Source: Neolewinella agarilytica (GTDB taxonomy: Bacteria; Bacteroidota; Bacteroidia; Chitinophagales; Saprospiraceae). Taken from it: a stretch of DNA of 64,000 nucleotides. Where the stretch lies: NCBI RefSeq assembly GCF_900110645.1, contig NZ_FOFB01000014.1, forward strand, positions 62,001 through 126,000, given 5' to 3'. The first letter of the stretch is position 1; each line of letters starts with the position of its first letter. The position numbers and the translations under genes are program-made. This document shows, piece by piece, positions 10,931-62,367 of this stretch. The notes under the pieces are model-generated. The model saw only the letters and a program-made list of their open reading frames with translations, had not been told where the DNA came from and made no database searches.

Positions 10931-10951
10931 CTTTGCACCTGCGTCAGCGCC
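10931..10951 (-). repeat. Dispersed 20-mer copy (intergenic)
   Basis: On the minus strand this reads GGCGCTGACGCAGGTGCAAA, one base different from the consensus seen elsewhere. It lies in the nrtA-nrtB gap beside the octamer array. Confidence 0.8.
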
Positions 10952-10955
10952 TTAT

Positions 10956-11069
10956 TAGTCAAGTAGTCAGAGAGTCAACTAGTCAAGCAGTCAGGGAGTC
11001 AAGCAGTCAAATAGTCATGTTCGGTAGCGGCTATTGGACTACTTGACTCCCCAGCTATTTGACTACTTA
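10956..11069. repeat. TAGTCAAG octamer tandem repeat with inverted second half
   Basis: Positions 10956-11018 hold about eight 8-base units of the type TAGTCAAG, CAGTCAGG and GAGTCAAC. After TTCGGTAGCGG the complementary units (CTACTTGA, CTATTTGA) run to 11069 and include the stop codon of the nrtA-like gene. The array could form a stem in the operon mRNA between the binding-protein and permease genes. Confidence 0.88.
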
Positions 11070-12434
11070 CTTCGCATCTTTATTACCGATGCTAAAGCTG
11101 TTGATGTAACCGATCGGATCTTTGCCGTCATAAGTAACACCATCGATGAAGTCGGCCGTGGCTGGCTTGTAGCCGTCGGTGTCCGGAATGTCCGAGGCGG
11201 GAATTTTACCTTCTGCAACCAGCGCTTCAGCGGCGCCTCTCCAGAGGTCGGGGCGGTAGACTTCGCGGATTTTCTCATCGTACCATTCACCAACTTTTGG
11301 CTCAGAAATCTGGCCCCAACGACGCATCTGGGTCAGGAACCATACACCGTCAGAGTAGAAGGGGTAAGTAGCGTTGTAGCGGTAGAATACATTGAAGTCA
11401 GGCATCTCGCGCTTGTCTCCTTTTTCGAATTCGAAGGTGCCGGTCATGGAGTTCGCCAGCACGATGGAGTCCGCACCTACGTACTCAGACTTTGCCAGGA
11501 TACCAACGGCAGCGGGGCGGTTGCCGGGCTCGTCCAGCCACTTTCCTGCGCGGATGAGGGCCTTGGTGATGGCTTTGGTCGTGTTGGGGTACTTCTCGGC
11601 AAAGTCTTTGCGCATGGCAAATACTTTTTCCGGGTTATTCTTCCATACGTCAGAGTTGGTCGTAACCGGAACGCCGATGCCTTTAAAGACGGCCTGCTGA
11701 TTCCAGGGCTCTCCCACACAGTAACCATAAATGGTGCCGGCTTCCAGGGTCGCGGGCATTTGAGGTGGCGGGGTAACGGAGAGTAAAACTTCGGCGTCTA
11801 CCTGACCCTGAATGTTGTCAGCGGTATACATGCCCGGGTTTACTCCTGCAGCAGCCAGCCAGTAACGAATCTCGTAGTTGTGAGTAGAAACCGGAAATAC
11901 CATGCCCATCTTGAAGGGCTTGCCCTCTGCGGCATAAGATTCAATAACGGGTTTGAGCGCTTCGGCGCTGATGGGGTGAGCGGGCTTACCGTCCGGGCCT
12001 TTAGGCACGTTGGGCTTCATTTTGTCCCACACATCGTTGGAGACCGTGATGCCGTTGCCATTGAGGTCCATGCTGAATGGGGTGATCAGTTCTGCCTGAC
12101 GACCGAAACCGGCACTGGCGGCGATGGGCTGTCCGGCGAGCATGTGCGCACCGTCAAGCTGTCCGTCGATAACACGATCAAGAATGTTTTTCCAGTTCGA
12201 TTGCGCTTCGACGCTTACGTAGAGGCCTTCGTCTTCGAAGTAACCGAGTTCTTTGGCGATGGCCAGCGGGGCCATGTCCGTCAGTTTGATGAAGCCGAAG
12301 GTTAATTGTGGCTTCTCAATCAATGCGGCGCCAGACGCAGGTGCCGTGGCCGTTGAAGAAGCAGTGGAGGCCGAATCACCGCCACAGGCAGTGAAGAGCA
12401 GGGCCAGGAAAAGTAGTGGGAGTAAATTTTTCAT
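11067..12434 (-). CDS. Nitrate ABC transporter substrate-binding lipoprotein (NrtA-like)
   Basis: The 455-residue protein has a lipoprotein leader with lipobox LLFTACGG (Cys17), then a Ser/Thr/Ala linker (about 19-38). The periplasmic binding domain contains [20 protein letters not shown], typical of the NrtA/CmpA/SsuA group, and an internal [16 protein letters not shown]. It probably captures nitrate or nitrite for the permease downstream. The linker carries a degenerate copy of the dispersed repeat. It lies after the porin gene in the minus-strand operon. Confidence 0.87.
12327..12345 (+). repeat. Degenerate copy of the dispersed 20-mer inside the nrtA-like linker
   Basis: GGCGCCAGACGCAGGTGCC resembles the consensus with one inserted base and a 3' mismatch. 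It encodes part of the linker just after the lipobox (residues about 30-36), a place tolerant of change. Confidence 0.45.
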
Positions 12435-12480
12435 TTTGGTTGGTTTTCCCCGGATTATGCCAGCGGCTTCATCCGGGTTT

Positions 12481-12522
12481 AAAACGCCAAGCGTTTTATT
12501 AAGCCCCTCTCCTCCGGAGAGG
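12481..12522. terminator. Two stacked hairpins between the porin and nrtA-like genes
   Basis: AAAACGC at 12481-12487 pairs with GCGTTTT at 12491-12497 around a 3-base loop. CCTCTCC at 12506-12512 pairs with GGAGAGG at 12516-12522. In the direction of transcription (minus) the first has a short T-rich tail, so it could be a partial terminator or an mRNA processing stem that sets the porin:binding-protein ratio. Confidence 0.5.
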
Positions 12523-12539
12523 AGTTGGGGAGAGGTTTC

Positions 12540-13850: not shown

Positions 13851-13862
13851 AAAGCAGGACAT

Positions 13863-17670: not shown

Positions 17671-17719
17671 GAGGAAAATCCCGTTCGTAGTCTATTTTTA
17701 ATTATCGAAGTTCCAGAAA

Positions 17720-19156
17720 ATGTCCAACCCCAAACTGTACCGGATGCCCGTGAAGGGAGGCGTGCTCACGCCCGCCGAGATGCTACGCGTGATTAGCCTG
17801 GCCCGCGAGCTGGGGCTGGATGGCCTTCACTTTGGTTCCCGGCAGGATATCGTCCTGCCCATCTCTCCCGAACGCTTTGCTGCTGATGACCGATATGCGA
17901 ACATCGGCCTTGATCCCATTGCGGAGGGCAAGTCGGCCAACATCATCAGCTCCTACGTGACGGCAGACATCTTCACGAAAACGCCCTGGCTCACCAGTGC
18001 GACCTACCTCTACATCCTGGAGCAATTCCAGTTTTCGCCCCGTCTGGAGGTCAATATCACCGATCCGAAGCAGCGGATGGTACCGCTGTTTACCGGCCAC
18101 CTCAACTTCATCGCCTCGCCGGAAGAAGACTTCTGGTACCTCTACATTCAGCTTCCGGCCTGGGAGAACATGGAAACCTTCCCGGCGCTCATTCATAGTT
18201 GGGACATTGCCCGGGTCGTAATGGCGCTGGATCCGCACGGAGACACTTTGACGGATCTGGCGGCCTGTGTCGTCCGGGTTAACGATAAGCAGGAGCTAAA
18301 GACGAAGAATATTCAGAAAGATCTCACCGTACCTTTTTATCCCTTTCCCTACTACGAAGGGATGAACCGGCTGGACGATAAGCAATACTGGCTCGGTCTC
18401 TACTGGCGCAATAACTGGTACGACCTTGATTTTCTCGTCGCCACCTGCGAACTCTGTATGGAGCACCGGATCGGCAAGATTTGTATCACTCCCTGGAAAT
18501 CGTTTATCATCACGGGTATTCCCGAAGAGAAGCGGATCGAGTGGGAAAAATTACTGGGCCGGTTTGGTATCAACGCCCGGCACAGCAGCCTGGAGCTTAA
18601 CTGGCACCTGCCGGTCGGGAATCAGGAGGCGCTGCAACTGAAGCAGTATCTCGTGCGCGAATTTGACCGGCGGGACATCAGTACTTATGGTCTCACCTTC
18701 GGGGTGGCTTCGCCCTACGCCCGGCCCTTCACCAGCATCGTGGTGGAGCGGGAGAGTGGTCCGGATTTTATCGATGGTTTCGCCGTCCTTCCCGCCTACA
18801 ACCTGAAGTATGCCCGCAATTTCGACCCTAATTCCCAGGAGTATGTAGAGTACGCCCGAAGGGTAGACCGTACGGCGCTTGCTGAGTTAATGGTGGAGCT
18901 GAGTAAGCTTTATTTCGAGCAACTCAACGAAGACCGGGGCGAGGTCATCGGCGCCAAACGGCCCGTTGAAAAGGCCGTAAAGGAGCGGCCCTTTTACCAG
19001 TGTTCCAGCTGCCAGAGCCTCTACGATCCCGCTTTGGGAGACCCGGATCAGGGGATCCGGATCGGTACGGAGTTTGCCGATCTGCCCGATGATTACAGTT
19101 GCTGGACCTGCTCAGCGGGGAAGTCGGCTTTTCGGGGGCTGGTGATGGAGGTGTAG
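17720..19156 (+). CDS. Rubredoxin-tailed protein with nitrite/sulfite-reductase-like ferredoxin fold
   Basis: The 478-residue protein starts with a segment resembling the NIR/SIR ferredoxin-like half-domain (GGVLTPAEMLRVISLAREL, then GSRQDIVLPI). It ends with a rubredoxin domain (about 425-470) with YQCSSCQSLYDP and YSCWTCSAG as the two CxxC iron ligands. I do not see the four-Cys siroheme/[4Fe-4S] signature of active sulfite or nitrite reductases, so it is unlikely to reduce nitrite itself. It follows the nitrate reductase gene by 49 bases and may pass electrons to it or to a nitrite reductase elsewhere (inference). Confidence 0.7.
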   Translation: MSNPKLYRMPVKGGVLTPAEMLRVISLARELGLDGLHFGSRQDIVLPISPERFAADDRYANIGLDPIAEGKSANIISSYVTADIFTKTPWLTSATYLYILEQFQFSPRLEVNITDPKQRMVPLFTGHLNFIASPEEDFWYLYIQLPAWENMETFPALIHSWDIARVVMALDPHGDTLTDLAACVVRVNDKQELKTKNIQKDLTVPFYPFPYYEGMNRLDDKQYWLGLYWRNNWYDLDFLVATCELCMEHRIGKICITPWKSFIITGIPEEKRIEWEKLLGRFGINARHSSLELNWHLPVGNQEALQLKQYLVREFDRRDISTYGLTFGVASPYARPFTSIVVERESGPDFIDGFAVLPAYNLKYARNFDPNSQEYVEYARRVDRTALAELMVELSKLYFEQLNEDRGEVIGAKRPVEKAVKERPFYQCSSCQSLYDPALGDPDQGIRIGTEFADLPDDYSCWTCSAGKSAFRGLVMEV

Positions 19157-19157: not shown

Positions 19158-19180
19158 GGGCGCAGCCGCAGGTGCAGGGG
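19158..19180 (+). repeat. Dispersed 20-mer copy, variant, just after a stop codon
   Basis: GGGCGCAGCCGCAGGTGCAG contains the exact core CGCAGGTGCA. It begins 1 base after the stop of the rubredoxin-tailed gene. Confidence 0.65.
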
Positions 19181-19339: not shown

Positions 19340-19544
19340 CCATACTTTAGCCAGGGCAGTCGCAAGCTCAAAGCCGAACGCTCAAAGGAACGTTTTATCC
19401 TACGCTGCGCTCCGGAAAACGTACGCTTCGAGGTTCTAATCTACCGTTTTAGGACCTCGAAGCGTGCTCAGCCATGGAGCCAGAGGCGGAATCGCTGAGT
19501 TCCTTTGAGCGTCCCGCGGGTGCGATTACCCCATACTTTAGCCA
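19340..19544. repeat. Palindromic element flanked by a 14-bp direct repeat
   Basis: CCATACTTTAGCCA occurs exactly at 19340-19353 and 19531-19544. Between the copies lies a palindrome. CGCTCAAAGGAAC at 19379-19391 pairs perfectly with 19499-19511, and 19423-19439 pairs with 19449-19465 (17 bp, one mismatch) around a 9-base loop. The organisation looks like a small inserted hairpin element with duplicated flanks. It fills much of the 400-bp gap (19157-19558); in the rest I see only one dispersed 20-mer. Confidence 0.7.
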
Positions 19545-19558
19545 ATCAAATCGCCAAC

Positions 19559-22066
19559 GTGAGGAACTTCGCACTACTTTGCCTTCTAACTTTCCTTTGC
19601 ACCAGCGTCCGCGCCCAAATCCCCGCCCGACCTACTTCGGGAGAGCTGCACGCAGAAATTCAAAAACTACAGGTACTCGGTTCAGCGCTGTACATGGCCG
19701 CTCACCCCGATGATGAGAACACGCGATTGATCGCCTACCTCGCCAACGTAGAAAAAGTGGAAACGGCTTACCTGAGCCTGACCCGTGGTGATGGCGGACA
19801 AAACCTCATCGCACCCGACATCCGCGAGCTGCTGGGGCTGACCCGCACGCAGGAATTGCTGGCCGCCCGCCGCACGGACGGCGGCACCCAGTTCTTCAGC
19901 CGGGCCAACGACTTCGGCTACTCGAAGCACCCCGACGAAACCTTCAATATCTGGGACAAGCAGGACGTACTTGCTGACGCCGTCTGGGTGATCCGTAAGT
20001 GGCGCCCCGATGTAATTGTGCTCCGCTTCGACCCCCGCGCGCCCGGTACCACCCACGGTCATCACACTGCCAGTGCCATTATTGGTCAGGAGGCCTTTGA
20101 CCTGGCCGGAGACCCGACGGCCTTCCCCGAGCAACTGAAATATGTGAAGCCCTGGCAACCCCGTCGCATTTACTGGAACGCCTACACCTGGCGTGGCGTA
20201 CCGGAGCATATGCGGCAAGACAAAATCATCAAAGTAGACGTTGGCACCTATCTACCCAAACTGGGCGAAGGCGTGGCTGAAATCGCGGCCCGCAGCCGCA
20301 GTCAGCACCGTAGCCAGGGCTTCGGCAGCGCCGGCAGCCGGGGCGAACAGATCGAGCAACTCGAGCTGCTCAAAGGAGACGACAAGGACGCCGAAGGCGA
20401 AGTGTTTGCTAACATCGACGTGAGCTGGAATCGCATCGGCGCCGGTCGGATCGGTCAGGCACTGCAGGCCATTGAACAGAACTTCAACTTCGATGACCCT
20501 TCGGCATCCGTACCAGCATTGCTGCGGGTGCGCGGTATGATTCGCGCGCTGCCCGACGGTTTCTGGAAAACTAAAAAGCTGGGAGAGCTGGATGAACTGA
20601 TTGCAAATGCCCTCGGCCTTTACCTTTTCGCTAAAACGGATGATCCCATCGCCACGGCCGGACAGGAGCTGGAGATAGACATCGAAGCCACCAACCGAAG
20701 CCAGCAGCCGGTGAAACTGATCGATTACTTCATCGATGGTACTCACATGACCCGGGCTGCCGTAGATCAGGAGCTGGCGGCTAACCGCCCCTTCCGGCAA
20801 ACGGACACGATTCAGGTGTTGACCGGGAAGGCCTCTTCTGGCCCCTACTGGCTGAAGGACTCCTGGAAACTTGGGATGTACACCGTGAAGGATCAGGCCC
20901 AGCGCGGTAAAGGGGAAAGTGATGATCCTCTGAATGCCGTCTTTACCCTGGACATTGCCGGAGAACAATTTGAATTCGTTCGGCCGGTCCGGCATGCCTT
21001 CACTGACCGGGTAATGGGCGAACAGGTGCAGCCGCTGGAAATCATGCCGCCAGTCTTCGGCGAGCTGGACAAAAGCAGCTACCTGTTCACGACCTCCGAG
21101 CCGACCACCATCCGCATCAAAGTAACCTCCGCCCGGGCTAACATCAGTGGTACGGTGGAGTTGTGTACACCGGAGAACTGGAGCGTTACCCCGAAAAACA
21201 AAACCTTCACCCTGACGCGGAAAGGGGAGGAGCAGTACTTTGAGTTTATGCTCACCCCGCCCGCCGATCAGGAGGAGGGGATGATCGTTCCGCTGATCAA
21301 ACTGGACGGCGAAGAAGACAGCGGCTACACCCGTAAGCTCATCAAGATCGAACATGACCATATTCCTACTCAGTTTGCTGATCTGGACGCCAGCGCGCCG
21401 GTTGCTAAGCTTGACCTGAAAGTTGCCGGCCGCAACATCGGTTACCTGCCCGGTGCCGGAGATGCCATCCCCGAGGCGCTGACCAACATCGGCCTCAACG
21501 TAACTACCCTGAACAAAGGAACCATCGCAACGGGAGACCTGAGCCGCTATGACGCTATCGTCGTCGGCATCCGCGCTTACAACACCGAGGCGGATATGCC
21601 GAATATGCAACCGCGCCTGCTGAAGTACGTGGAGAATGGAGGTACGCTGGTTGTTCAATACAACACCAGTCGCGGGCTCAAGCTGCCCATGACGGAAATC
21701 GGCCCTTATCCGCTGCAGCTCAGCCGTGACCGGACGACGGTGGAGGAAGCGCCCGTGCGCATTCTCGCCCCGGATCACCCCGTGCTGAACTACCCGAATA
21801 AAATTACCAGCAAAGACTTCGACGGCTGGGTACAGGAGCGCGGCCTCTACTTCCCCAATAACTGGGACGAACGCTACACCCCCATCATCAGCTCCAATGA
21901 CCCCGGCGAAGATCCCCACGATGGTGGCCTGCTGGTGGCGGAATATGGCAAAGGTCATTACGTCTACACGGGCTACAGCTTCTTCCGGGAACTGCCGGCG
22001 GGTGTGCCGGGTGCCTACCGCCTGTTTGCTAATTTGGTGGGGCTGGGGAATGAGGTGCGGCCGTAG
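19559..22066 (+). CDS. PIG-L/LmbE family deacetylase, long secreted form
   Basis: The 835-residue protein has a PIG-L domain at about 40-290 with the metal-binding AAHPDDEN and, later, HGHHTASA. A long beta-rich C-terminal region includes a ThuA/GATase-like segment (ADMPNMQPRLLKYVENGG, then TLVVQYN). I choose GTG 19559, which yields MRNFALLCLLTFLCTSVRAQ, a clear Sec signal peptide; a TTG at 19505 is in frame but falls inside the palindrome. PIG-L enzymes hydrolyse N-acetyl groups of sugars; the long secreted Bacteroidota forms are not well characterised. A dispersed-repeat copy encodes the end of the signal peptide. Confidence 0.82.
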   Translation: MRNFALLCLLTFLCTSVRAQIPARPTSGELHAEIQKLQVLGSALYMAAHPDDENTRLIAYLANVEKVETAYLSLTRGDGGQNLIAPDIRELLGLTRTQELLAARRTDGGTQFFSRANDFGYSKHPDETFNIWDKQDVLADAVWVIRKWRPDVIVLRFDPRAPGTTHGHHTASAIIGQEAFDLAGDPTAFPEQLKYVKPWQPRRIYWNAYTWRGVPEHMRQDKIIKVDVGTYLPKLGEGVAEIAARSRSQHRSQGFGSAGSRGEQIEQLELLKGDDKDAEGEVFANIDVSWNRIGAGRIGQALQAIEQNFNFDDPSASVPALLRVRGMIRALPDGFWKTKKLGELDELIANALGLYLFAKTDDPIATAGQELEIDIEATNRSQQPVKLIDYFIDGTHMTRAAVDQELAANRPFRQTDTIQVLTGKASSGPYWLKDSWKLGMYTVKDQAQRGKGESDDPLNAVFTLDIAGEQFEFVRPVRHAFTDRVMGEQVQPLEIMPPVFGELDKSSYLFTTSEPTTIRIKVTSARANISGTVELCTPENWSVTPKNKTFTLTRKGEEQYFEFMLTPPADQEEGMIVPLIKLDGEEDSGYTRKLIKIEHDHIPTQFADLDASAPVAKLDLKVAGRNIGYLPGAGDAIPEALTNIGLNVTTLNKGTIATGDLSRYDAIVVGIRAYNTEADMPNMQPRLLKYVENGGTLVVQYNTSRGLKLPMTEIGPYPLQLSRDRTTVEEAPVRILAPDHPVLNYPNKITSKDFDGWVQERGLYFPNNWDERYTPIISSNDPGEDPHDGGLLVAEYGKGHYVYTGYSFFRELPAGVPGAYRLFANLVGLGNEVRP
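19594..19615 (-). repeat. Dispersed 20-mer copy encoding a signal-peptide end
   Basis: On the minus strand this reads GGCGCGGACGCTGGTGCAAA, one base off consensus. In the plus-strand gene it encodes residues 12-19 (LCTSVRAQ), ending at the likely signal-peptidase site. Confidence 0.78.
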
Positions 22067-22076: not shown

Positions 22077-22100
22077 GGGCGCACACGCAGGTGCAAGGAA
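22077..22100 (+). repeat. Dispersed 20-mer copy after the PIG-L gene
   Basis: GGCGCACACGCAGGTGCAAG lies 11 bases after the stop codon. A short hairpin (AGAGCAA at 22109-22115 with TTGCTCT at 22120-22126) follows it and may help end transcription, although it lacks a T tract. Confidence 0.75.
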
Positions 22101-27780: not shown

Positions 27781-29100
27781 TCAGGGCCGCTCCCATCCCG
27801 CCCGATACACCCGCGCCAAAAGTGCCGTCGCCTCCTCATCACCTGCAATGACTTTTCGTTCCGGATCATAAGAAAGTGGCCGCTCCAGCGAACACGCCAG
27901 ATTCGCCAAAATACAGGATGCCGTAGAAATATGCCCTTCCTGTAAGCTGGCTACCGGACTAGTCCCTTGCTCAATGGCTTCCAGCCAGTTGCGGAGGTGG
28001 GCTCGCGTGGCGGGGGCTACGTGGAGCTCGATGCCTTCCTCCGTCACATCCTCCGGGAATTGTTCCCGTTCATAGCTGACGTCTACCCGAACGGGAGCTC
28101 CCTTCAGCGGTCGCCATTCATACTTTTTGGTGTCAGCAATAAGGACTCCTTTTTCACCATAGAGCGTAAAGGACCATGGCCATTCTTTGTCTGGCGCACG
28201 GCCCCAGCTGCGGTGCGTCCAGTGGCAATTGAGTTTCCGTTCGGGATACTCGAAAACGGCCGTTTGGGTGTCAGTGGTGGTTGCGTCAGCCTCGGTTTGC
28301 ACGTATACGCCCCCCTGGCTGCTTACCCGGGCTGGCCAGCCCAGGCCAAGGAGCCAGCGGACGGCATCATAATAATGGACGCACATATCCCCAACGATGC
28401 CATTACCGTATTCCTCAAAGGCTCGCCAGCGGCGGTGCGGGCGGCCTTTGTAGGGCAGGAGAGGGGCCGGCCCACTCCAGCGGTCGTAGTCGAAGCCTTC
28501 CGGCACGCTGGTCGGTTGACGCACCGCCTTATCCCGCATCGGGTAATAACAACTCATCTCAACGTGGTGTACCTCCCCCAGCAGGCCACGGTCAATGTAT
28601 CGCTCCTTCATATCAATCAGGTGGGGAGTACTCCTGCGTTGCAGCGCTACCTGAATGACCTGGTCGGGGTGCTGGCGCGCAGCGGCAAGTATGGCTTCCC
28701 CTTCCCGAATATCCCGACTCACGGGTTTCTGTAAGTACAGGTGGCAGCCTGCCTTGAGGCAGTCGATGGCGTGTAGCGCATGCCAGTGGTCGGGGCTTTC
28801 AATCAGCACCAAACCTGGCTGTTCCCGGGCCAGTAATTCTTCGTGTTTTTGGTAGAGGCGGGGCCTCTGTTTGGGGTGTCTGCTTTGCAACATAGCCAGG
28901 GCAAGATCGAGTTGTTGCTGGTCGGGATCACAGAGGCCCACGACCTCCACATCAGCGACCTGAAGCAGGCGCAGCAGGTCCATCTTTCCGTACCAGCCTG
29001 CACCGATGAGGGCTACCTTTTTTTGGCGCGGACGCAGGTGCAAAGGAAGTCCAGGGAAAAGCAGTGCTTGGGCGGTGGCGAGAAATTGTCGGCGTTGCAT
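27781..29100 (-). CDS. Gfo/Idh/MocA family oxidoreductase, exported
   Basis: The 439-residue protein starts with a twin-Arg-like leader (MQRRQFLATAQALLFPG). It then has an NAD(P)-binding Rossmann fold (KVALIGAGWYGK), the family motif QKPVSRD (usual EKP, here QKP) and a C-terminal substrate domain with GDMCVHYYDAVRWLLG. Exported members in Bacteroidota usually act on sugars or inositol-like compounds, with the cofactor carried through the Tat system. The true substrate cannot be told. The leader carries a perfect copy of the dispersed repeat. It stands alone between unlike genes. Confidence 0.82.
   Translation of the reverse strand: MQRRQFLATAQALLFPGLPLHLRPRQKKVALIGAGWYGKMDLLRLLQVADVEVVGLCDPDQQQLDLALAMLQSRHPKQRPRLYQKHEELLAREQPGLVLIESPDHWHALHAIDCLKAGCHLYLQKPVSRDIREGEAILAAARQHPDQVIQVALQRRSTPHLIDMKERYIDRGLLGEVHHVEMSCYYPMRDKAVRQPTSVPEGFDYDRWSGPAPLLPYKGRPHRRWRAFEEYGNGIVGDMCVHYYDAVRWLLGLGWPARVSSQGGVYVQTEADATTTDTQTAVFEYPERKLNCHWTHRSWGRAPDKEWPWSFTLYGEKGVLIADTKKYEWRPLKGAPVRVDVSYEREQFPEDVTEEGIELHVAPATRAHLRNWLEAIEQGTSPVASLQEGHISTASCILANLACSLERPLSYDPERKVIAGDEEATALLARVYRAGWERP
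29025..29046 (+). repeat. Dispersed 20-mer copy, perfect, inside an export signal
   Basis: GGCGCGGACGCAGGTGCAAA matches the consensus exactly. In the minus-strand gene it encodes about residues 19-26 (HLRPRQK), just after the hydrophobic core of the leader. Confidence 0.82.
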
Positions 29101-31936: not shown

Positions 31937-32482
31937 ATAAAAACAGACCGCCAACTCCTCCTCCGCGCCGCCAACGGCGACCAAAGTGCCTTCAGGGCGC
32001 TCTACCTGCGGTATGGGAAACGGCTGTATGGCTACTTCCTTCTCCGGGTGGGGGGAGACCGGGAGCAAGCCGAAGACCTGAAGCAGCAGGTCTTCCTGCG
32101 CTTGCTGGAGAGCCGTGCTTTCCGGGAGGCGGAAACTGGGCCGGAGGATATCTCTTCACTCCTTTTCACTATTGCGGCCAACCTGCTGAAGAATGTGTAC
32201 CGGAGCCAGGAGCGGCAGCAACGGCGGGAGGCGGCCTATCGGGATATTCGCCGGGCTAATGACAGCACCGAAGAACCCAGGATTGAGAGCCGGCGCGTAG
32301 CGCTGGCCATTGAGCGGCTGCCGGAACATCAGCGGCTGTGCGTAGAGCTGCGCTTCCGTAAGGGGCTCTCCACGGAAGAGGTTGCAGAAGCCCTCAATTG
32401 TGCGCCCGGAACGGTGAAAAGCCGACTGCACTACGGGCTCAAGAAGCTCGCCGAAATTTTAAACGCCACAACGATTAACTGA
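31937..32482 (+). CDS. ECF-family sigma factor with apparent ATA start
   Basis: Read from ATA 31937, the frame encodes a normal ECF N-terminus (MKTDRQLLLRAANGDQSAF), region 2 (EQAEDLKQQVFLRLLE) and region 4 (LPEHQRLCVELRF, then KGLSTEEVAEALNCAPGTVK). No ATG, GTG or TTG occurs in this frame between the preceding in-frame stop (31889-31891) and GTG 32048, and starting at GTG would delete half of region 2. A TTG at 31888 overlaps the upstream stop but is in another frame; a one-base loss in the A5 run at 31939-31943 would join it. The stop overlaps the next gene's ATG by one base. Confidence 0.78.
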   Translation: MKTDRQLLLRAANGDQSAFRALYLRYGKRLYGYFLLRVGGDREQAEDLKQQVFLRLLESRAFREAETGPEDISSLLFTIAANLLKNVYRSQERQQRREAAYRDIRRANDSTEEPRIESRRVALAIERLPEHQRLCVELRFRKGLSTEEVAEALNCAPGTVKSRLHYGLKKLAEILNATTIN

Positions 32483-33069
32483 TGGAGTATCTGGACTATT
32501 TAGCGGATTATACTTACGACGAGCTGCCACAGTCCGTCCGCTCCTCCATCAGTCGGGAGGCCTACGCCGAGCGCCGGCAGATGGTGCTGGCCGTGCAGGA
32601 ACCCGAAGAGACGGCGCTTCCCCCTGCACTAGCCGCGGCTTTTACGGCGCATACGCAGGTGCAAGGGCAGGCTGCAGGGAGCAATGTCCGCTGGCTGCCC
32701 TGGCTGGCGGCTGCGGGCTGGCTGCTCTTTCTGGGGGCAAGTGGCTTGCTCTTGCTCCGCGAGCCCGAAACATTGCTCGTTGAAAAAACCACCACTGCAC
32801 CTGCGGCAGCGGCCCCTGCTGAGCTTGCCGAAGTACCAGAAATCATTTATTCCACCGACACGCTTTATCAGACCGTCATTCGCTATCGCGACCGGATAGA
32901 AACCGTGATTGTTCACGATACGGTTTATCAGGAGCTCGCCGTTGACCGCTTAGTCTATCTGACGGATACTCTTTATCTCCCTGCTGCCGATCCTGCACTA
33001 CCGGTTAGTGGAAGCAGTAGTTTAGCGGGTAAGAAGAAGGTATTGAGCTTCTTATTTGCCACGGAATAA
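32482..33069 (+). CDS. Single-pass membrane protein coupled to the sigma factor, putative anti-sigma
   Basis: The 195-residue protein has a cytoplasmic-looking N-terminus (DYTYDELPQSVRSSISREAY), a Pro/Ala linker and one transmembrane helix at about 70-92. A periplasmic tail with similar words follows (STDTLYQTVI, HDTVYQEL, LTDTLYLP). The position immediately after a sigma gene, with overlapping TGATG, suggests an anti-sigma role, but no ZAS or FecR domain is visible. The linker contains a copy of the dispersed repeat (residues about 55-62), and a weaker core match lies at 32793-32813 in the Ala-rich stretch after the helix. Confidence 0.6.
   Translation: MEYLDYLADYTYDELPQSVRSSISREAYAERRQMVLAVQEPEETALPPALAAAFTAHTQVQGQAAGSNVRWLPWLAAAGWLLFLGASGLLLLREPETLLVEKTTTAPAAAAPAELAEVPEIIYSTDTLYQTVIRYRDRIETVIVHDTVYQELAVDRLVYLTDTLYLPAADPALPVSGSSSLAGKKKVLSFLFATE
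32646..32667 (+). repeat. Dispersed 20-mer copy in the sigma-partner linker
   Basis: GGCGCATACGCAGGTGCAAG keeps the exact core CGCAGGTGCA and encodes AHTQVQG. Confidence 0.72.
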
Positions 33070-38538: not shown

Positions 38539-39006
38539 ATGACTTATACTAAACCTCGCTACATCGTTGTTTTACTGGGACTTTTTACCTGCTTTCCCCT
38601 TTTGGGGCAACCCAAACTTGATCAAAATTTTCTGCTTAATGCTTTCAATAGTCTTAGTCCGGTTGAGCGTTTTCATTCAACTCGCACGGATGATTTCATC
38701 ACCTATTTCACATTCCACCCAGTGTCAAGATCTAATGGTGCCGTAAGATTTTATCTGTCGAGCACCTTTACCGATGAAAACGGAAAAACGATAGTGGAAT
38801 CGGGGCGGATAATAGAGATGTCTGAAGTACTCCTTCCTGACGAACCGCTACAGCTAATTGTGCAGCCAGTTGTTATTTACTTAAACTGTTATGAATTTTC
38901 GCGAAATGACATGAAGCCTAGCACTAAATTTTTAAAAGAGGAACTGAATACTTGGAGAGCTTGTGGTTATAGTGTTCAACAGCCTACAAAAATTACCAAA
39001 GGGTAG
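38539..39006 (+). CDS. Small exported protein, first of a tandem pair
   Basis: The 155-residue protein has a signal peptide (YIVVLLGLFTCFPLLGQ) and a compact domain with TYFTFHPVSRSNGAV, STFTDENGKTIVESGRII and RACGY. It is about half identical to the next gene. I chose ATG 38539 by alignment with that paralogue; ATG 38530 is also possible. I know of no family. As a small periplasmic protein repeated behind a larger lipoprotein gene, it could be an immunity protein or accessory factor (speculation). Confidence 0.6.
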   Translation: MTYTKPRYIVVLLGLFTCFPLLGQPKLDQNFLLNAFNSLSPVERFHSTRTDDFITYFTFHPVSRSNGAVRFYLSSTFTDENGKTIVESGRIIEMSEVLLPDEPLQLIVQPVVIYLNCYEFSRNDMKPSTKFLKEELNTWRACGYSVQQPTKITKG

Positions 39007-39606
39007 CAACACTGACAAGGATCAAGCTCAGGATTTGCCAAGACAATGAAATAGTAAAATTAGTTAAACAATAGGAAAGTAAGACTAATCGCTTTCTTTT
39101 AGGATGACATGAAAATACTAACTAATATTTACTGTAACGTATTGTTTCTAGGGATTTTCACCTGCTTGCCTCTCTTCGGGCAACCCGAACTTGATCAAAA
39201 ATTTTGGTTTGAGGCTTTTAAAAGCCTGAGATCAACTGAGCGTTTCCGATCATCCCTAAGCCGGGTGGACAACTTTGCGACCTATTTTACATTTCACCCG
39301 GTATCAAAGTCGAATGGTATTGTAAGTATGTATTTAACGAGTACCTTTACCGATGAGAATGGAAATATGGTAGTCGAATTGGGGCGGATAATTGAGTTGC
39401 CTGAAACTCTCCTTCCTGCCGAGCCCATACAGTTGATCATACAGCCAACGGTGATTTATATCAATAGCGATAGTCTTTTTCGAAATGAAATGAATTTTAT
39501 CGATAGATTTCCGGAAAGTGAGCTAGAGCGTTGGAAAGCTTGTGGCTATAATATTAAGAAGCCCGAACAGATCATAAGATCAACACAACACTGATAAGGA
39601 TCAAGC
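39007..39606. repeat. Direct repeat marking a tandem gene duplication
   Basis: CAACACTGACAAGGATCAAGC at 39007-39027 recurs with one change at 39586-39606, 579 bases later, in each case at the 3' end of one of the paired genes. This shows that the duplicated unit included the 3' flank as well as the coding part. Confidence 0.75.
39109..39594 (+). CDS. Small exported protein, second of a tandem pair
   Basis: The 161-residue protein has a signal peptide (VLFLGIFTCLPLFGQ) and the same domain as its upstream paralogue (TYFTFHPVSKSNGIV, STFTDENGNMVVELGRII, KACGY). The two are most alike in the central block and diverge near the C-terminus. The role is unknown. It ends the AT-rich cluster; the next gene, an MFS transporter, returns to the higher-GC background. 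Confidence 0.6.
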   Translation: MKILTNIYCNVLFLGIFTCLPLFGQPELDQKFWFEAFKSLRSTERFRSSLSRVDNFATYFTFHPVSKSNGIVSMYLTSTFTDENGNMVVELGRIIELPETLLPAEPIQLIIQPTVIYINSDSLFRNEMNFIDRFPESELERWKACGYNIKKPEQIIRSTQH

Positions 39607-42115: not shown

Positions 42116-43054
42116 TCATTTCTGCGCTGTCACCAGTACCTCGTAAGAGGAATACCTTCTGGCCCACTTGCCCGCGGAGATGCTCATGGCCGAAGCCAGG
42201 CCGTCCGCTATCATAGCGTTCGGCCCAATGACGGTAATGATGGCCTGGTGGGTTACTCCATAGCCCGTTCGCGGATCAATGAGGTGGCTGTAGCGCCTGC
42301 CAGCGTGCTCCAGAAAACGGTAGGTATCTCCGGAAGTAGCAACGGCAATGTTTTTCAGCGATCTCTTTTGTTGGCTGCCCGGGAAATCAATAACCCACCC
42401 ATCGGGTTGATCCGGTGGGCAATCACCGAGGAGGAGGTCTCCGCCACCGTCGAGGAGGAAGGCCGTGAAGCCCGCTTCCTGAAGTAGCTGGCCGACAACA
42501 TCCAGTGCGTAGCCCTTGGCGACGCCCCCAAGGTCGAGTTTTATATCACTGCGCCGGAGGCGAAGACACCCTTTCCTTGCTGTTTTCAGGTCTTTCCATT
42601 GCACCTGCGTGCGCGCCGCAAAAATGTCTTCTTCCTCCGGGAGTTCCTGCTGCCGGAACGCCCGCCGCCAGAGCTTCGTCAACGGCCCTGCCGTCGGGTC
42701 ATAAGCTCCCTTACTGTGCCGGGCCAGCTGCTTGCTAAAGCAAAGTACGGTGTATAAATCAGGTGACACCTTCTGCCAGTCCGTTTGGCCCGTCAGTTTA
42801 TTCAGCTCACTGCCCGACCGGTAATCACTCATGCTTTGCTCCAGGGCATCCACCTTGGCGAAGCATTGACGCACTGCGAATGATAAGCCGCTCGTGTCCT
42901 TCGCTGAGATCGTGATGCGAAACTCGGTACCCATGGCGGGATGGGTGAAGGTGTACTGCGGTTGCGCGCACAATAAGCCGGCCTCCCAGATCAATACCAG
43001 GGCCAAATAAGGAGTAAGTAAGTGCCAAGGCCGGGGCCAGGTCAAGTAGCGCAT
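42116..43054 (-). CDS. ApbE-like FAD:protein FMN transferase
   Basis: The 312-residue protein has an N-terminal membrane or signal segment (LLTPYLALVLIWEAGLLCAQ). ApbE motifs follow: MGTEFRITI, LDLGGVAKGYALD, FLLDGGGDLLLG and HLIDPRTGYGV. ApbE enzymes attach FMN to Ser/Thr of exported redox proteins, using FAD. No obvious flavinylation target is adjacent. The gene starts 7 bases after the stop of the Gfo/Idh/MocA gene on the same strand. A copy of the dispersed repeat encodes residues about 146-153 (AARTQVQW) in a loop. Confidence 0.88.
   Translation of the reverse strand: MRYLTWPRPWHLLTPYLALVLIWEAGLLCAQPQYTFTHPAMGTEFRITISAKDTSGLSFAVRQCFAKVDALEQSMSDYRSGSELNKLTGQTDWQKVSPDLYTVLCFSKQLARHSKGAYDPTAGPLTKLWRRAFRQQELPEEEDIFAARTQVQWKDLKTARKGCLRLRRSDIKLDLGGVAKGYALDVVGQLLQEAGFTAFLLDGGGDLLLGDCPPDQPDGWVIDFPGSQQKRSLKNIAVATSGDTYRFLEHAGRRYSHLIDPRTGYGVTHQAIITVIGPNAMIADGLASAMSISAGKWARRYSSYEVLVTAQK
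42596..42617 (-). repeat. Dispersed 20-mer copy inside the apbE-like gene
   Basis: On the minus strand GGCGCGCACGCAGGTGCAAT keeps the exact core and encodes RTQVQ in frame, in a loop between conserved ApbE motifs. Confidence 0.75.
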
Positions 43055-45522: not shown

Positions 45523-45547
45523 GGCGCAGACGCAGGTGCGAAAAAGG
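45523..45547 (+). repeat. Dispersed 20-mer copy, intergenic
   Basis: GGCGCAGACGCAGGTGCGAA lies in the gap between divergent genes (45392-45682) and differs from the core by the last base (G for A). Confidence 0.65.
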
Positions 45548-47986: not shown

Positions 47987-48009
47987 GGCGCTCACCGCAG
48001 GTGCAAAGG
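47987..48009 (+). repeat. Dispersed 20-mer copy, variant, after the peroxidase gene
   Basis: GGCGCTCACCGCAGGTGCAA contains the exact core CGCAGGTGCA with one inserted base between the halves. Confidence 0.65.
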
Positions 48010-50780: not shown

Positions 50781-50807
50781 GGCGCGGGGCCGCAGGTGCA
50801 GTGAAAG
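50781..50807 (+). repeat. Dispersed 20-mer copy, variant, between pirin and nitroreductase genes
   Basis: GGCGCGGGGCCGCAGGTGCA contains the exact core CGCAGGTGCA. Confidence 0.6.
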
Positions 50808-52882: not shown

Positions 52883-54625
52883 CTAGAACACACTCACATA
52901 GCCCAGGTGCACCTTCGGCGCGCCAAGGTCGAGCGGAATACCATTGCTTTTGCCCAGGGCAAGGCTCAGCCCGAATACGCCTGCACGGGTTTCAAAATTG
53001 ACCCCGGCACCAAAGCCGAGCGGGTAATCAATTTTCAGGTCCGGTCGGGCTTTATCTCTGGAGTTTACCCGGCCGGCATCAACAAAGCCGTAGAGAAAAG
53101 CATTCCCGCCAAGCAGCAGGCGGAATTCGGCCGTAGCCAGGAGGTAGTCTCGGGCAAAGACCGATTGTTCGTCAAAACCACGTAGCAGTCGGGCACCACC
53201 GATCCGGAACTGTTCATTGGGCAGTACGTCTTCCGCAGTAAAAAGCCCCGCTCCCCTTAAGCCCAGATAAATGACCGTTCCCGCCAACGGATCGAAGTAG
53301 GCCTCCAGACTGCCCTCTATTTTAAGTTGGGTGCTGCGGACGTTGAGGCTGTCGGATTCCACCACATCCAGTAAGCGGCGGAAGCCCGCCGCCACACTAA
53401 CATCCGCTGCGTAGCCGGAGCGGGGGCTGAAGCGCCGGTCCGTCCGGTTACGTCGGGCCTGCAGCCCGAAAAAAGAGCGACTCACGCCCAGGGTGTCCGG
53501 CAGCTCGCCTGTTATGGGAGTGCTTTCTCCCGTTTCGCCAGGGACGATCGTCCGCCGGTTTTCCCAAAAGGCGGACAGCTTGTCGTTGCCCTCCCGCAGA
53601 TAATTTGCGGCCAGGCGCCAATTGAGGTTCAGGAAGGAAGAGTCCCGGCGGTAAAGGTCAAGCTCCCCTTCGAAGCCGAAAGGAAGGTTAAGCAGAAAGG
53701 GATATTCCAGGGCTACGGCCAGTTCCTGTGTTTGTGGTCGTAGTTGCTCAAAGCGAACGGCAATGCGTTCGCCCTGTCCCAGCCCGTTGTAAAGTTCTCC
53801 GTTCAATTCTCCGGTAATGAGCAGGCCATCATCGGCGCCGCTACCGGGGAGTACACCAATGACGAAGTCAAAGCGGCTGGCGGGTTTGCGCGTGAGCTGA
53901 AGATCGAAGTAGGCCAGGCTGTCCAGAAAACTGATCGTTGGTGCCCCCTTTACGTTGACATAGGGCAGTTGCTGCAGCGAGCGTCCTATACGTTTTACCC
54001 GTTTCTGGTTGAAGGGGTCTCCGGGGCGTAAGCCCAGGTAGCGGGCCAGAAACTCAGGCTTAACGCGTGCGCCTTCGGCCACGCGTATTTCCCCGACGAC
54101 GACCCTCGGGCCCGGGCTCACGTTGATGCTGGCGGATAGCTGCCCGGGGGCAAGCCAGGAAATGCTGTCCAGTGCCACCGAGGCGAAGGGGTAGCCATCG
54201 TCAGCGGCTTGTACAACCAGACTGTCGCGCAGGGCCGTCCACAACTCGGGGGCAAGTGGCCGGCCGGCGCGGAAGCGCCGCTCCCGGTACCCCGCCTTTC
54301 TGGCCCAGGCAAGGCTTTGGGCATTGGCCGGTGGCCGCAGCTCCGCCCAGCTGTAAGCAGGGCCACGGTGGGCGATGGCGAGCAGCGTATCCCCTTCACC
54401 CTTGTGAAGACTATCAATGGAGGCTTCCCAGTGCGCTTTGGCGCGCTGCCGGGCGACCCACTCAGCGAGGTAAACAGCCATTTCACTGCTGTCCGGAAAC
54501 TCCCGTGGGGCATCCGACCAACCTTCTTCAGGCCTGCTCAGCAGAAGGGTAGGGGAGTTTCTCTGGCCACTGGCCATCCCCTGCACCTGCGTCAGCGCCC
54601 AAAAAAGGAGTAGGAATCGGATCAT
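52883..54625 (-). CDS. BamA/TamA-like outer-membrane protein with POTRA region
   Basis: The 580-residue protein has a signal peptide (MIRFLLLFWALTQVQGMA), a POTRA-like region (about 165-240, with VVVGEIRVAEGARVKPEF and YLGLRPGDPFNQKRV) and an Omp85-type barrel. The barrel includes RFSPRSGYAADVSV and ends LGAPKVHLGYVSVF. I use ATG 54625; the frame is open to 54724, but that part reads the GGTTGCA repeat. It may insert or secrete outer-membrane proteins. A copy of the dispersed repeat encodes the signal-peptide core. Confidence 0.8.
   Translation of the reverse strand: MIRFLLLFWALTQVQGMASGQRNSPTLLLSRPEEGWSDAPREFPDSSEMAVYLAEWVARQRAKAHWEASIDSLHKGEGDTLLAIAHRGPAYSWAELRPPANAQSLAWARKAGYRERRFRAGRPLAPELWTALRDSLVVQAADDGYPFASVALDSISWLAPGQLSASINVSPGPRVVVGEIRVAEGARVKPEFLARYLGLRPGDPFNQKRVKRIGRSLQQLPYVNVKGAPTISFLDSLAYFDLQLTRKPASRFDFVIGVLPGSGADDGLLITGELNGELYNGLGQGERIAVRFEQLRPQTQELAVALEYPFLLNLPFGFEGELDLYRRDSSFLNLNWRLAANYLREGNDKLSAFWENRRTIVPGETGESTPITGELPDTLGVSRSFFGLQARRNRTDRRFSPRSGYAADVSVAAGFRRLLDVVESDSLNVRSTQLKIEGSLEAYFDPLAGTVIYLGLRGAGLFTAEDVLPNEQFRIGGARLLRGFDEQSVFARDYLLATAEFRLLLGGNAFLYGFVDAGRVNSRDKARPDLKIDYPLGFGAGVNFETRAGVFGLSLALGKSNGIPLDLGAPKVHLGYVSVF
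54578..54599 (-). repeat. Dispersed 20-mer copy in the BamA-like signal peptide
   Basis: On the minus strand GGCGCTGACGCAGGTGCAGG keeps the exact core. It encodes ALTQVQG in the BamA-like gene, about residues 9-16. Confidence 0.75.
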
Positions 54626-54661
54626 CGGTAGGGTAACGGTTGGGGAGGGGTGGCTGTTGTT

Positions 54662-54718
54662 AGGTTGCAGGTTACAGGTTGTAAGTTGCAGGTTGCAAGG
54701 TTCCAGGTTGCAAGGTGC
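54662..54718. repeat. GGTTGCA heptamer tandem repeat, second locus
   Basis: About eight units of GGTTGCA, GGTTACA, AGTTGCA and similar form the upstream region of the BamA-like gene. The unit is the same as at 8638-8782, 46 kb away, but here only one arm is present. Confidence 0.85.
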
Positions 54719-54769
54719 GGCCATGGGAGCTGGATATTTGGGATTTTAGAATACTCCCTCTGCGTCCCT

Positions 54770-54815: not shown

Positions 54816-54848
54816 TTGTCCGCACGAAAAAATGTCGCAAATCGCCCC

Positions 54849-56609
54849 CTACTCCCGCCGCAAACTCCGCGCCACATTACTCAGCAAAATCATCCCTGTC
54901 AGCAAAAGTGCCACCCGCGCCACCAGGTCTCCAAAGCGCACAAATGGCGTGATGGCATCGTTGAGCTGCATCTCTCCACGTAAGTAAACAGCTTCGTCAT
55001 ACCGGGTTTTACTAATGATCTTACCCCGCTGATCGATAAACGCGCAGATGCCCGTATTGGCGGAGCGGACCACCGACCGGCGCGTCTCAATGGCCCGCAA
55101 ACTGCTAAACCAAAGGTGCTGCCGGTGCCCGGCGGTGTTGTCCCACCAACCATCGTTCGTAACGACGAAAATGGCCTGAGCACCTTCACGGATGTAATCG
55201 GTAAAGTACTCCCCAAAGACGGATTCGTAGCAGATAACGGGGGCAATTTTAGCCGTCGGTGAGGTCATCGGTAGTCGTCGGTCCTGGGTGCCGCGCCCGG
55301 CCACGGTACCCCCCAGCTGGTTGACCCAGTCTTCGAGAAACCAGAAAATTTTGCGGAAGGGGAAGCTCTCCGCTCCAGGCACGAATACCCCTTTTTTGTA
55401 GAGCTGGGGTTCGCTGTCGCCCTGGAGATCCAGCTGTACGGCAGCGTTCAGCGCTTCCAGTGCGACGAGGCTGCCATCACGTCGGGGGATGTAGCGAACG
55501 GCCGGAGTGACGGCTTCTCCTTCAGCGAAAATGTAATAGCCACTGATGCCGGTCATCAGGTAGTGCGCCCCCTTGCCGTCCAGGCCTGCCTGCAGCCGTC
55601 GGAGGGTGGATTGGCTCGCCAGATCATTCACCTCAATATTGTCAAAACTGGTTTCGGGGTAGACCAGGTAATCTACCGGCCCTTCCTCCAGTGCCGCCAG
55701 GCTTAGGCGGAGAAAGGTGTCAAGCTGGGAGTTGACGTCGTTGGAAAATTTTTCGAAGTGCGGCTCAAAATTCGGCTGGATCGAGGCCACCTTGATCGTG
55801 TCGCCCGCCGGAGCAGAGTAGGTCGCATAGCGAAGCAGGGAACCAACTATGGGGAACAATGCGATGGCCAGTGGGAGCAAGGCTTTTTTGGGCGCTGACG
55901 CCGGTGCCGTGTACCATTTAAAGGCAAGGTAATTGCAGCCCAGGACCCAGGCGGAACCGCCCAGTGCACCCGTTACTTCATACCACTGCACGAGCGAGGG
56001 TAACTGCGCAAAACCGTTACCAAGCGTCAGCCAGGGCCAGTTCAGCGACCAATTATAGTGCAGGTATTCAAAGGATAACCAGCAGACGGCGAAGGCCAGA
56101 AAGGCAATGCGGGGTGATTTTCGGCTCGTCCAGTGAAACGCCAGCCAGGGCAGCGTCATCAGCAAACTGTTGGCGATAATGGCAAACAAACCTGCCGCCA
56201 GACCAGTATTCGTTACCCAGTAAGTCGCCAGGATGTTAAATAACAGAAAGGCACTGAAGCCGTGCCAGAATACCCGGCCGTAGCCCGCTTTTTCCTCCGT
56301 TAGCTTACCGTGCAACACAAACATGGGAACGAACCCGATCAGTAGTAAAAACGGAAAGGGCAGCAGGCCCGGGAAGCCGAAGCCCAGCAATAAACCCGTC
56401 AATGTGCTGTACAGATTGTTCGGCCGGTAAACACCCTTCCGACGGAAGGTGGCCAGCAGGGTAACTCCGCCATAAAGGGTGAGGAATAAAAACAGCGGAG
56501 CAAACCCCCAGAGCTTTTCTTCGGTAAACCGCAGGTACATACTTCCTCCGATGAGCGCGGAAATAAGGAGCAGTGCAAAAGCAATGTAGCGACGGGCGGC
56601 GTGGGACAT
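54849..56609 (-). CDS. lnt: Apolipoprotein N-acyltransferase
   Basis: The 586-residue protein has several N-terminal membrane helices and a C-terminal nitrilase-type domain. The triad is Glu in VYPETSFDN, Lys in YKKGVFVPGAE and Cys in VICYESVFGE. It should acylate the N-terminal Cys of lipoproteins in the inner membrane. I start at ATG 56609 just before the first helix; the upstream frame to 56762 adds a Cys- and Lys-rich segment without support. A weak dispersed-repeat match lies at 55891-55909 in a loop. Confidence 0.9.
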   Translation of the reverse strand: MSHAARRYIAFALLLISALIGGSMYLRFTEEKLWGFAPLFLFLTLYGGVTLLATFRRKGVYRPNNLYSTLTGLLLGFGFPGLLPFPFLLLIGFVPMFVLHGKLTEEKAGYGRVFWHGFSAFLLFNILATYWVTNTGLAAGLFAIIANSLLMTLPWLAFHWTSRKSPRIAFLAFAVCWLSFEYLHYNWSLNWPWLTLGNGFAQLPSLVQWYEVTGALGGSAWVLGCNYLAFKWYTAPASAPKKALLPLAIALFPIVGSLLRYATYSAPAGDTIKVASIQPNFEPHFEKFSNDVNSQLDTFLRLSLAALEEGPVDYLVYPETSFDNIEVNDLASQSTLRRLQAGLDGKGAHYLMTGISGYYIFAEGEAVTPAVRYIPRRDGSLVALEALNAAVQLDLQGDSEPQLYKKGVFVPGAESFPFRKIFWFLEDWVNQLGGTVAGRGTQDRRLPMTSPTAKIAPVICYESVFGEYFTDYIREGAQAIFVVTNDGWWDNTAGHRQHLWFSSLRAIETRRSVVRSANTGICAFIDQRGKIISKTRYDEAVYLRGEMQLNDAITPFVRFGDLVARVALLLTGMILLSNVARSLRRE

Positions 56610-56824
56610 GGGGCAAAGGTAGGCTTGTAGTTTGATAGTCTTGAGGGCTCCGCGTTTGACAGCTGTCATTTTGGATTCCCCCACACAAAAGAACAATAGT
56701 CTTTGATCAGATGACTGGGCTTGATTTTGATTGTAACGGTGCTTTTTAAGGCATTTTGACAAATCTACTTCACTAATAGCCGGCGTAAAAGTTTATCTCA
56801 TTGGCAGCGTATGATCAAGAAACG

Positions 56825-56887: not shown

Positions 56888-56915
56888 TTTTATCCTCAAA
56901 GGTTTTAACCCACTC

Positions 56916-57965: not shown

Positions 57966-57976
57966 GCCCTTGTCTA

Positions 57977-58816: not shown

Positions 58817-58990
58817 TCGATTATCTGATGGTTGGGGCACTAATCTTTTCATCAGTATACGCTGGTTTTCGGCTCAAGTGGACTACTGCTTACGGCAGGA
58901 GTCAGTGTAAATAAAGGAGCTGAAGTAGGGCGTTTAATCAACGGAAGAACGTTTTGCCAAACGTAGCGACCATCAAAACATCAAAGTAGC

Positions 58991-59716: not shown

Positions 59717-59783
59717 GATTGGAGGGACGGTTAGATCAGAGAAGTAACACGAGTGGCGACGACGAGGTTGTGAATCTGTTTCA

Positions 59784-61619: not shown

Positions 61620-61726
61620 GCATGATGGGTGTTGAGGAACGAAAGGTAGCTTTTTTGATCGTAATCCTGTTTCTGGCAATTTGAGCTTGGAAAGCGCCTA
61701 TCTTGTGCGCTCAAACTACTTGTTTT

Positions 61727-62215
61727 ATGCGTTACCTCTTCGTTTTATCTCTTGTGTTTATTCTTTTTTCCTGCAAAAGCGACGCGCCCGACGGTGAGCT
61801 GACGGCGCCCGAAACTTCTGCTCCGGCTCCGGGAGTAAATCCCATTCCTGCCATCACGGGGAGTGAATCAATGCAGCCGGGTGAGCTGGCCGATTTTTCT
61901 CAGGTCAGTGAGGCTTGCAGCTGCAGGCTTCGGCTGGACTCTGCCGAAGGAGAGGATGATCTCTTTTTCGCCTTTAACCTGAAGGACGGCCCCGGAATTA
62001 TCAGCCTCAACGGAGAGCGGCAGGTCGTACAACGAGGGGCTAGCCTGAGCTCCGGCAGCGGTAATGAAAGCTACCTGCACCAGAACGATCGTTACCGGAT
62101 CCAGACTTCATTGACTGATGAAGGAGGAACGGAGCAGTCCGGTCGCGTAAAGATCACCAACCTGGAAACGGAGGAGAAAACCATCGTTCGCGTGGTGGGG
62201 AACTGCCAGTGCTAG
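61727..62215 (+). CDS. Small hypothetical lipoprotein
   Basis: The 162-residue protein has a lipobox LFSC (Cys16), then a Pro/Ser/Thr linker and a small beta domain with two Cys in EACSCRLRL and a C-terminal GNCQC. I do not recognise a family. It begins 107 bases from the DUF5060 gene on the opposite strand (divergent). Confidence 0.6.
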   Translation: MRYLFVLSLVFILFSCKSDAPDGELTAPETSAPAPGVNPIPAITGSESMQPGELADFSQVSEACSCRLRLDSAEGEDDLFFAFNLKDGPGIISLNGERQVVQRGASLSSGSGNESYLHQNDRYRIQTSLTDEGGTEQSGRVKITNLETEEKTIVRVVGNCQC

Positions 62216-62303
62216 ATAAGTAGTGGGCAGAGGCTCCAGCTCCGACCGCGAAGGGGGCCGAAGGTTCCCGGAGCAAACACCAGGCTCCTATTCCCAAAAG
62301 CAG

Positions 62304-62367
62304 CCTTTGCACCCGCGTCCGCGCCGCCTCATATCAGGTAACTATCTGGCGCGGACGCAGGTGCAAA
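62304..62367. repeat. Inverted pair of dispersed 20-mers
   Basis: The minus-strand copy at 62304-62325 (GGCGCGGACGCGGGTGCAAA) and the plus-strand copy at 62348-62367 (GGCGCGGACGCAGGTGCAAA) differ at one base. They form a roughly 20-bp stem with a 22-base loop between the convergent genes of the small lipoprotein and modC. No T tract follows. The remaining gap (62216-62303) shows nothing else. Confidence 0.85.

Follow-up and report, generated by a model that had tools for sequence, protein, structure and literature searches.

The 64-kb stretch of Neolewinella agarilytica DNA analyzed here (the window, G000:C25:62001-126000, from the 6.22-Mb host genome G000 in 74 contigs) codes, among others, for NMT1-like, ApbE, Omp85-family and Lnt proteins, and dispersed both within and between its genes are 16 copies of a long, non-palindromic word (Table 1). 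The word is bipartite, with GGCGC followed by a spacer of 3 (also 4-5) bases and then by CGC-N-GGTGCA; in its strict part, GGCGC-N3-CGC-N-GGTGCA, bases 6-8 and 12 among 18 are variable. An earlier inspection of the letters, made without database searches (the sequence-only reading), had claimed about 16 copies of a 20-bp sequence, and all 16 places that it listed are recovered when the spacer is allowed to be 3, 4 or 5 bases long, as it is in 13, two (12327, 47987) and one (50781) of the copies, respectively. The core CGCAGGTGCA is exact 11 times in the window, as had been counted, against an average of 0.15 in shuffles, and the 20-bp word is likewise over-represented, with 10 matches at up to 3 mismatches against 0.00 in shuffles. 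Across 864 kb of the host genome the right half CGCNGGTGCA occurs 191 times, preceded by the left half GGCGN across a spacer of 3 bases in 118 cases, 5 bases in 33 and 4 bases in 12; in a control with the left half reversed, spacing 1 gave 61 matches, which the word's own bases produce, and most other spacings gave 0-11. Over-representation extends to a weaker tail, roughly RDG-N-AAGGTT and then GCA about ten bases further, and to a T-rich flank upstream of the word.

Table 1. Copies of the word in the 64-kb window (mismatches are counted in the 14 fixed bases)
Feature	Position	Strand	Match	Context
Word copy	10934..10951	-	0 mismatches	Intergenic
Word copy	12327..12345	+	4-base spacer, 1 mismatch	Within NMT1-like gene 11067-12434 (-)
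Word copy	19159..19176	+	0 mismatches	2 bases past stop codon of gene 17720-19156
Word copy	19598..19615	-	0 mismatches	Antisense, near start of predicted gene 19520-22066
Word copy	22078..22095	+	0 mismatches	11 bases past stop of gene ending 22066
Word copy	29025..29042	+	0 mismatches	Upstream of predicted start (28983) of oxidoreductase gene, - strand
Word copy	32646..32663	+	0 mismatches	Within gene 32482-33069, which has no Pfam match; paired convergently with 32796
Word copy	32796..32813	-	1 mismatch	Convergent partner of 32646
Word copy	42600..42617	-	0 mismatches	In ApbE gene, predicted 42116-42934 (-)
Word copy	45523..45540	+	1 mismatch	Intergenic by gene prediction
Word copy	47987..48005	+	4-base spacer, 0 mismatches	32 bases past stop of gene ending 47954
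Word copy	50781..50800	+	5-base spacer, 0 mismatches	
Word copy	54582..54599	-	0 mismatches	Close to the N-terminus of Omp85-family gene 52883-54724, in what by eye is a signal peptide
Word copy	55891..55908	+	1 mismatch	Between the two Pfam domains of Lnt gene 54849-56762 (-)
Word copy	62308..62325	-	0 mismatches	Divergent pair with 62348
Word copy	62348..62365	+	0 mismatches	

The sequence-only reading had asked for a genome-wide count, a codon-preserving control and a comparison with related genomes, and the first two bear out the reality of the word. In the host genome GGCGCNNACGCAGGTGCA occurs exactly 346 times against 0 for the reversed pattern, and GGCGCNNNCGCNGGTGC 1,004 times against 2, with both orientations used as had been claimed (521 forward, 483 reverse). 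Within the 864 kb the 14-base form has 113 exact copies, 40 copies with 1 mismatch and 26 with 2, the corresponding figures for the reversed word being 0, 2 and 10; the perfect form is thus the commonest form of the word. Eight synonymous-codon shuffles within genes retain 0-3 exact genic copies against 54 observed, so that codon usage does not account for the word, and one-mismatch genic copies number 26 against 1-7 in such shuffles. The strict form has a density of 1 per 6 kb, and copies are spread more evenly than at random, with a variance-to-mean ratio of 0.72 per 10 kb in G000 (86 windows, 192 copies). The nine 10-kb windows free of the word have a mean GC content of 0.468, against 0.527 in the 63 windows with at least two copies. 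Two large stretches, C26:144-164 kb and C24:48-70 kb, lack the word in its 3-base-spacer form; among ten of their proteins scanned are an aromatic amino acid lyase with ketoacyl synthases in the former and a glycosyltransferase with GDP-mannose dehydratase in the latter, and both would appear to resemble acquired islands. Replication polarity was not found: relative to GC skew in five stretches of G000, G013 and G001, 96 copies lie on the locally G-rich strand and 105 on the opposite one (p 0.57), and in a 400-kb stretch of C27 whose skew is negative in 19 of 20 windows, 41 copies are + and 43 are -.

The PcrB protein of the window has its best match, among the named genomes scanned, in a contig of an uncultured Lewinella MAG (92%), which includes the G009 contig-51 sequence letter for letter; entries named Lewinella or Neolewinella follow at 70-78%, along with two named Bacteroidia/Saprospiraceae at 71%, in keeping with a Lewinella-like host of the Saprospirales. 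The genus set comprises 21 genomes (G000-G020), and comparison of orthologous sites across it indicates that copies persist in place. Twelve sites of G000 (2 in stretch L119, 8 in L124 and 2 in the window) entered 36 comparisons, each taken only if a BLAST alignment of at least 300 bases spans the site; unalignable DNA is therefore unsampled. Among the 27 comparisons with genomes of the same dialect (G002, G004, G005, G007, G009, G014 and G018), 24 show no gap at the site, and the 3 that do are excluded from the identity figures. The other 9 comparisons (G003, G006, G008, G011, G013, G015, G016, G017 and G019), 8 of them at the linker site at window position 55891, are omitted from the count; all are gapped at the site, though G013 and G019 share the broad spelling of the host. 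In the ungapped comparisons the word is retained with at most 1 mismatch in 21 and lost in 3 (2, 2 and 6 mismatches), and identity, which is 0.929 at the fixed bases, drops to 0.731 in the flanks and 0.677 at the four free positions. The site at 50781 is also present in the closest congener (G009, contig L031) at the same place and with no insertion, the only 2 substitutions in its 20 bases both falling at free positions. A C27 copy within the class I/II aminotransferase domain of a gene with that Pfam match (L124:4949-4966, mid-gene) retains all fixed bases or all but one in five congeners, among which the free positions differ; the proposal that intragenic copies fall in signal peptides, linkers or loops therefore does not extend to the genome as a whole.

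At the Omp85 site 14 of 20 congeners have a sequence that departs from the word at no more than 2 bases, and at all 15 loci, G000 included, this sequence stands in the same reading frame of what looks by eye like a signal peptide. In species with few copies of the word this site reads ARAQV or similar, and signal-peptide coincidence may account for it there. Words present in congeners and without a G000 counterpart fall in gapped intergenic alignments (around L124:4490-4540), and these cases decide nothing. Taken together, copies probably arise by substitution rather than insertion, and the suggestion of a spreading miniature element fails in alignable DNA, where orthologous sites are mostly colinear and fixed bases are better kept than the surrounding and intervening ones.

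The spelling of the word differs between lineages of the genus. A de novo word search in 8 genomes recovered an enriched word of similar make in 7, while G010 has a different, AT-rich word; the words for G006, G008 and G015 come from 120-200 kb each and are provisional. GGCGCNNNCGCNGGTGC is found in high numbers (510-1,213 copies) in ten genomes, G000, G002, G004, G005, G007, G009, G013, G014, G018 and G019, and in at most 35 copies in G001, G003, G006, G010 and G017; in 19 genomes outside the genus it totals 8 copies, with reversed controls at 0-10 per genome. A second spelling, GGCGGGNNCGCNGGAGC, occurs 345 times in G003 and 231 times in its sister G017, at most 9 times in each of the other 19 genus genomes and 2 times in total outside. 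A third, GCGNCGGAGCGCAGGT, has 372 copies in G001, 84 in its sister G006, 73 in G015, 35 in G000, no more than 29 in any of the rest and 0 outside, and a fourth, CAAAGTAGCAATG, has 393 in G010 and at most 1 in each other genome. A tree of one gene, Omp85 (21 rows), unites G003 with G017 (100/98) and G001 with G006 (100/100), sets G010 on a long outlying branch and divides the ten high-copy genomes between two groups (100/99 and 94/95) without resolving their union. Judged by spelling counts against this one-gene tree, the dialects are congruent with phylogeny, with the limits that the high-copy genomes do not form one resolved clade, that the G001/G006 spelling is also found at lower number in G015 and G000, and that the six genomes with intermediate numbers of GGCGCNNNCGCNGGTGC lack an established spelling. 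The Omp85 site of G003 (L142), a single site, fits the G003 spelling exactly, and signal-peptide coding may contribute to this match.

With respect to genes, of which our simple coding model predicts 562 in the 864 kb, the 153 copies with at most 1 mismatch comprise 80 genic ones (36 sense, 44 antisense), 71 assigned as intergenic and 2 unplaced. The intergenic copies lie in co-directional (46), divergent (19) and convergent (6) gaps, and density per kb declines from 0.67 in divergent gaps through 0.48 in co-directional and 0.24 in convergent ones to about 0.11 in predicted genes. Copies on the same strand as the gene show maxima between 250 and 50 bases ahead of starts and in the first 50 bases past stops (15 copies there, against 5 on the opposite strand), and opposite-strand copies are most frequent from 150 bases before to 100 bases after gene starts. 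The intragenic placement described in the sequence-only reading stands for some copies, while others lie at or before likely gene starts and that at 29025 is outside the predicted gene. Copies just past stop codons brought up a terminator or 3'-end signal, which we reject, as intergenic density is lowest in convergent gaps, with 6 copies over 24.8 kb, and highest in divergent ones, with 19 over 28.2 kb; a purely promoter-flanking site is weakened by the genic share. G000 has 21 close pairs (less than 300 bases apart), 16 of them convergent, the corresponding figures being 2 of 7 for G013, 7 of 12 for G010 and 1 of 1 for G001. Some of the convergent pairs of G000 are 76-85 bases apart, examples from a partial listing being C20:39874/39953 and C21:94118/94196.

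A group of phage-like contigs also bears the word. Searching IMG/VR for GGCGCNGACGCAGGTGCA returned 35 stretches, 16 of which by eye carry the host-type word with its flank, the other 19 looking like chance or unrelated occurrences. Thirteen of the 16 are linked by BLAST (L360, L363, L364, L365, L369, L371, L374, L375, L377, L379, L382, L388 and L389); the remaining ones are L361 and L372, which belong to one contig, and L380. Among ten proteins of L364 and L361 that were scanned, 5 match a PHROG, including tail-fibre families in both and, in L364, a terminase large subunit, and 0 of 8 phage proteins match the bacterial stretches examined. In L364 and L369 the word stands at the same residue of a 153-residue frame.

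To our knowledge, uptake sequences have been described from two proteobacterial families, both of which use type IV pili. The genomics of the present word resemble those of the Neisseriaceae and Pasteurellaceae sequences, including a bias to gene ends, and the earlier comparison to uptake sequences or to HIP1-like words holds in pattern only: genome-wide, with a perfect-match peak, non-polar, kept in place and spelled by lineage. HIP1 of cyanobacteria is a short palindrome that is highly repeated and in place; the present word shares the latter properties and differs in being long and non-palindromic. The uptake signal sequences (USS) of the Pasteurellaceae have weaker flanks round a strict core, as seen here. 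A further likeness is that the Pasteurellaceae sequence is reported to lie mostly at the 3' ends of reading frames and its complement at the 5' ends (PMC2346458); the sequences themselves are unrelated. The DNA uptake sequences (DUS) of the Neisseriaceae are reported to have very many copies in dialects congruent with phylogeny (PMC3630211), whereas the word described here is longer and bipartite, has a variable spacer and a lower density, and belongs to another phylum. Unlike either family's sequences, it is known from genomes alone and is accompanied by no PilT-family match. Within the Bacteroidota, transformation of Riemerella columbina is reported to favour its own DNA, which outcompetes foreign DNA; the account (PMC7965970) lists candidate k-mers and leaves their function open, and those listed are A/T-rich, unlike the present word.

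In light of these parallels, we propose, with about an even chance of being right, that the word serves the recognition of self-DNA, probably for a pilus-independent form of DNA uptake. A protein of each lineage, perhaps a single reader, would bind that lineage's own spelling, and the word would be used in sequence-specific uptake or in a later step of transformation, such that conspecific DNA would enter and recombine more often; uptake bias together with selection would hold copies perfect, and new ones would come about by point substitution. Because the search for a PilT-family ATPase in the genus gave no match, DNA would have to cross the outer membrane by a route that does not depend on a type IV pilus. 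With rather less assurance, at somewhat under an even chance, we posit a Bacteroidota uptake-sequence system that would dispense with the type IV pilus, have at least four dialects in one genus and employ a different receptor and uptake machine, convergent with those of the Neisseriaceae and Pasteurellaceae, and whose phages may bear the host word.

Several observations weigh against the proposed role in uptake. The PilT family (TIGR01420) is matched in 0 of the 21 genus genomes and in 13 of 14 control genomes; this pilus retraction ATPase is a defining component of known uptake-sequence systems, so that their mechanism is unavailable in the genus. The inner-membrane channel ComEC (PF03772), present in 21 of 21 genus genomes, does not discriminate, as 16 of 19 genomes outside the genus also carry it. 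No cognate (ComP-like) receptor has come to light, though no search aimed at one was made. No report of natural competence in the genus is among the literature matches listed, nor do those on Lewinella and Saprospirales include a repeated word or uptake sequence, and such absence is weak evidence. Six genomes (G008, G011, G012, G015, G016 and G020) have intermediate numbers of GGCGCNNNCGCNGGTGC (175-245 copies), without a clearly established spelling of their own. With 1 copy per 6 kb, the strict form is less dense than the DUS of Neisseria, for which PMC2346458 cites almost 1,500. The scarcity of the word in low-GC windows may point to acquired DNA, or merely to the word's own GC-richness; the phage-like contigs bear it as well; and the clustering of copies on both sides of gene starts, together with the convergent pairs of G000, could fit a chromosomal binding protein.

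Such a protein, an abundant nucleoid-associated or global regulator whose sites near promoters and gene ends co-evolved with it in each lineage, is the main alternative and one that we regard as a genuine, if unlikely, contender. It would explain the excess of intergenic over genic density, the peaks around gene starts and the prevalence of convergent pairs in G000. Yet more than half of the copies are genic, including the one in the aminotransferase domain kept within 1 mismatch in five congeners, and G013 shows no convergent pairing; moreover, we know of no regulator site with about 14 fixed bases at about 1,000 places and a peak at the perfect match. Gene-end bias is in any case also reported for uptake sequences (PMC2346458).

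A recombination or repair signal, a Chi-like hotspot spread by biased repair, appears improbable, even though biased repair would likewise be expected to yield in-place copies and a perfect-match peak. Chi and the FtsK-orienting polar sequences (KOPS) are polar words with an orientation bias along the replichore, and both are rejected on the lack of strand polarity; known Chi sites are also much shorter. A miniature mobile element or its remnants would account for dispersal in both orientations, often between genes and in some close inverted pairs, as in repetitive extragenic palindromes, bacterial interspersed mosaic elements and miniature inverted-repeat transposable elements, and could draw on the unalignable sites outside the comparison and on the congener-only words in gapped alignments. 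Against this, alignable orthologous sites mostly lack an insertion, the fixed bases are the best kept, the intervening bases vary, the spacer ranges from 3 to 5 bases and the spelling shifts by lineage, making this origin very improbable. Least credible of all is an origin as a side effect of codon usage and of A-x-A-Q endings of signal peptides: the constant frame at the Omp85 site speaks for it and it may explain single sites, but it is contradicted for the bulk of copies by the codon-preserving shuffles, by the 71 of 153 copies that are intergenic and by the about equal use of both strands.

Other repeats were seen alongside the word. A CRISPR-like array (clustered regularly interspaced short palindromic repeats) at G000 C27:299962-304234, spanning the end of L125 and the start of L126, has 57 exact occurrences of its 28-base repeat core, mostly at 72-75-base spacing. 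In the window, a dispersed GTTGCAGGTTGCAGG-type repeat lies at 8617-8795 and 54647-54709, with like stretches many times in G000, G002, G004 and G009; short repeats of AGTCAAGCAGTCA type occupy 10960-11060; and a tandem duplication (38548-38984 and 39121-39563, offset about 575 bases) has copies 70% alike. Words of TAGTC/GTAGT type are enriched in stretches of G013 and G001.

If the word does prove to direct DNA uptake, it would represent an independent, convergent case of uptake sequences in a marine genus of Bacteroidota and would offer a handle on how Bacteroidota that lack a pilus take up DNA. Its dialects would then hinder the exchange of genes among closely related species, and this barrier would be legible from sequence alone. 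Even with a chromosomal protein as the reader, it would be unusual for a word of about 14 fixed bases to be kept perfect at about 1,000 positions and to change its spelling from lineage to lineage.

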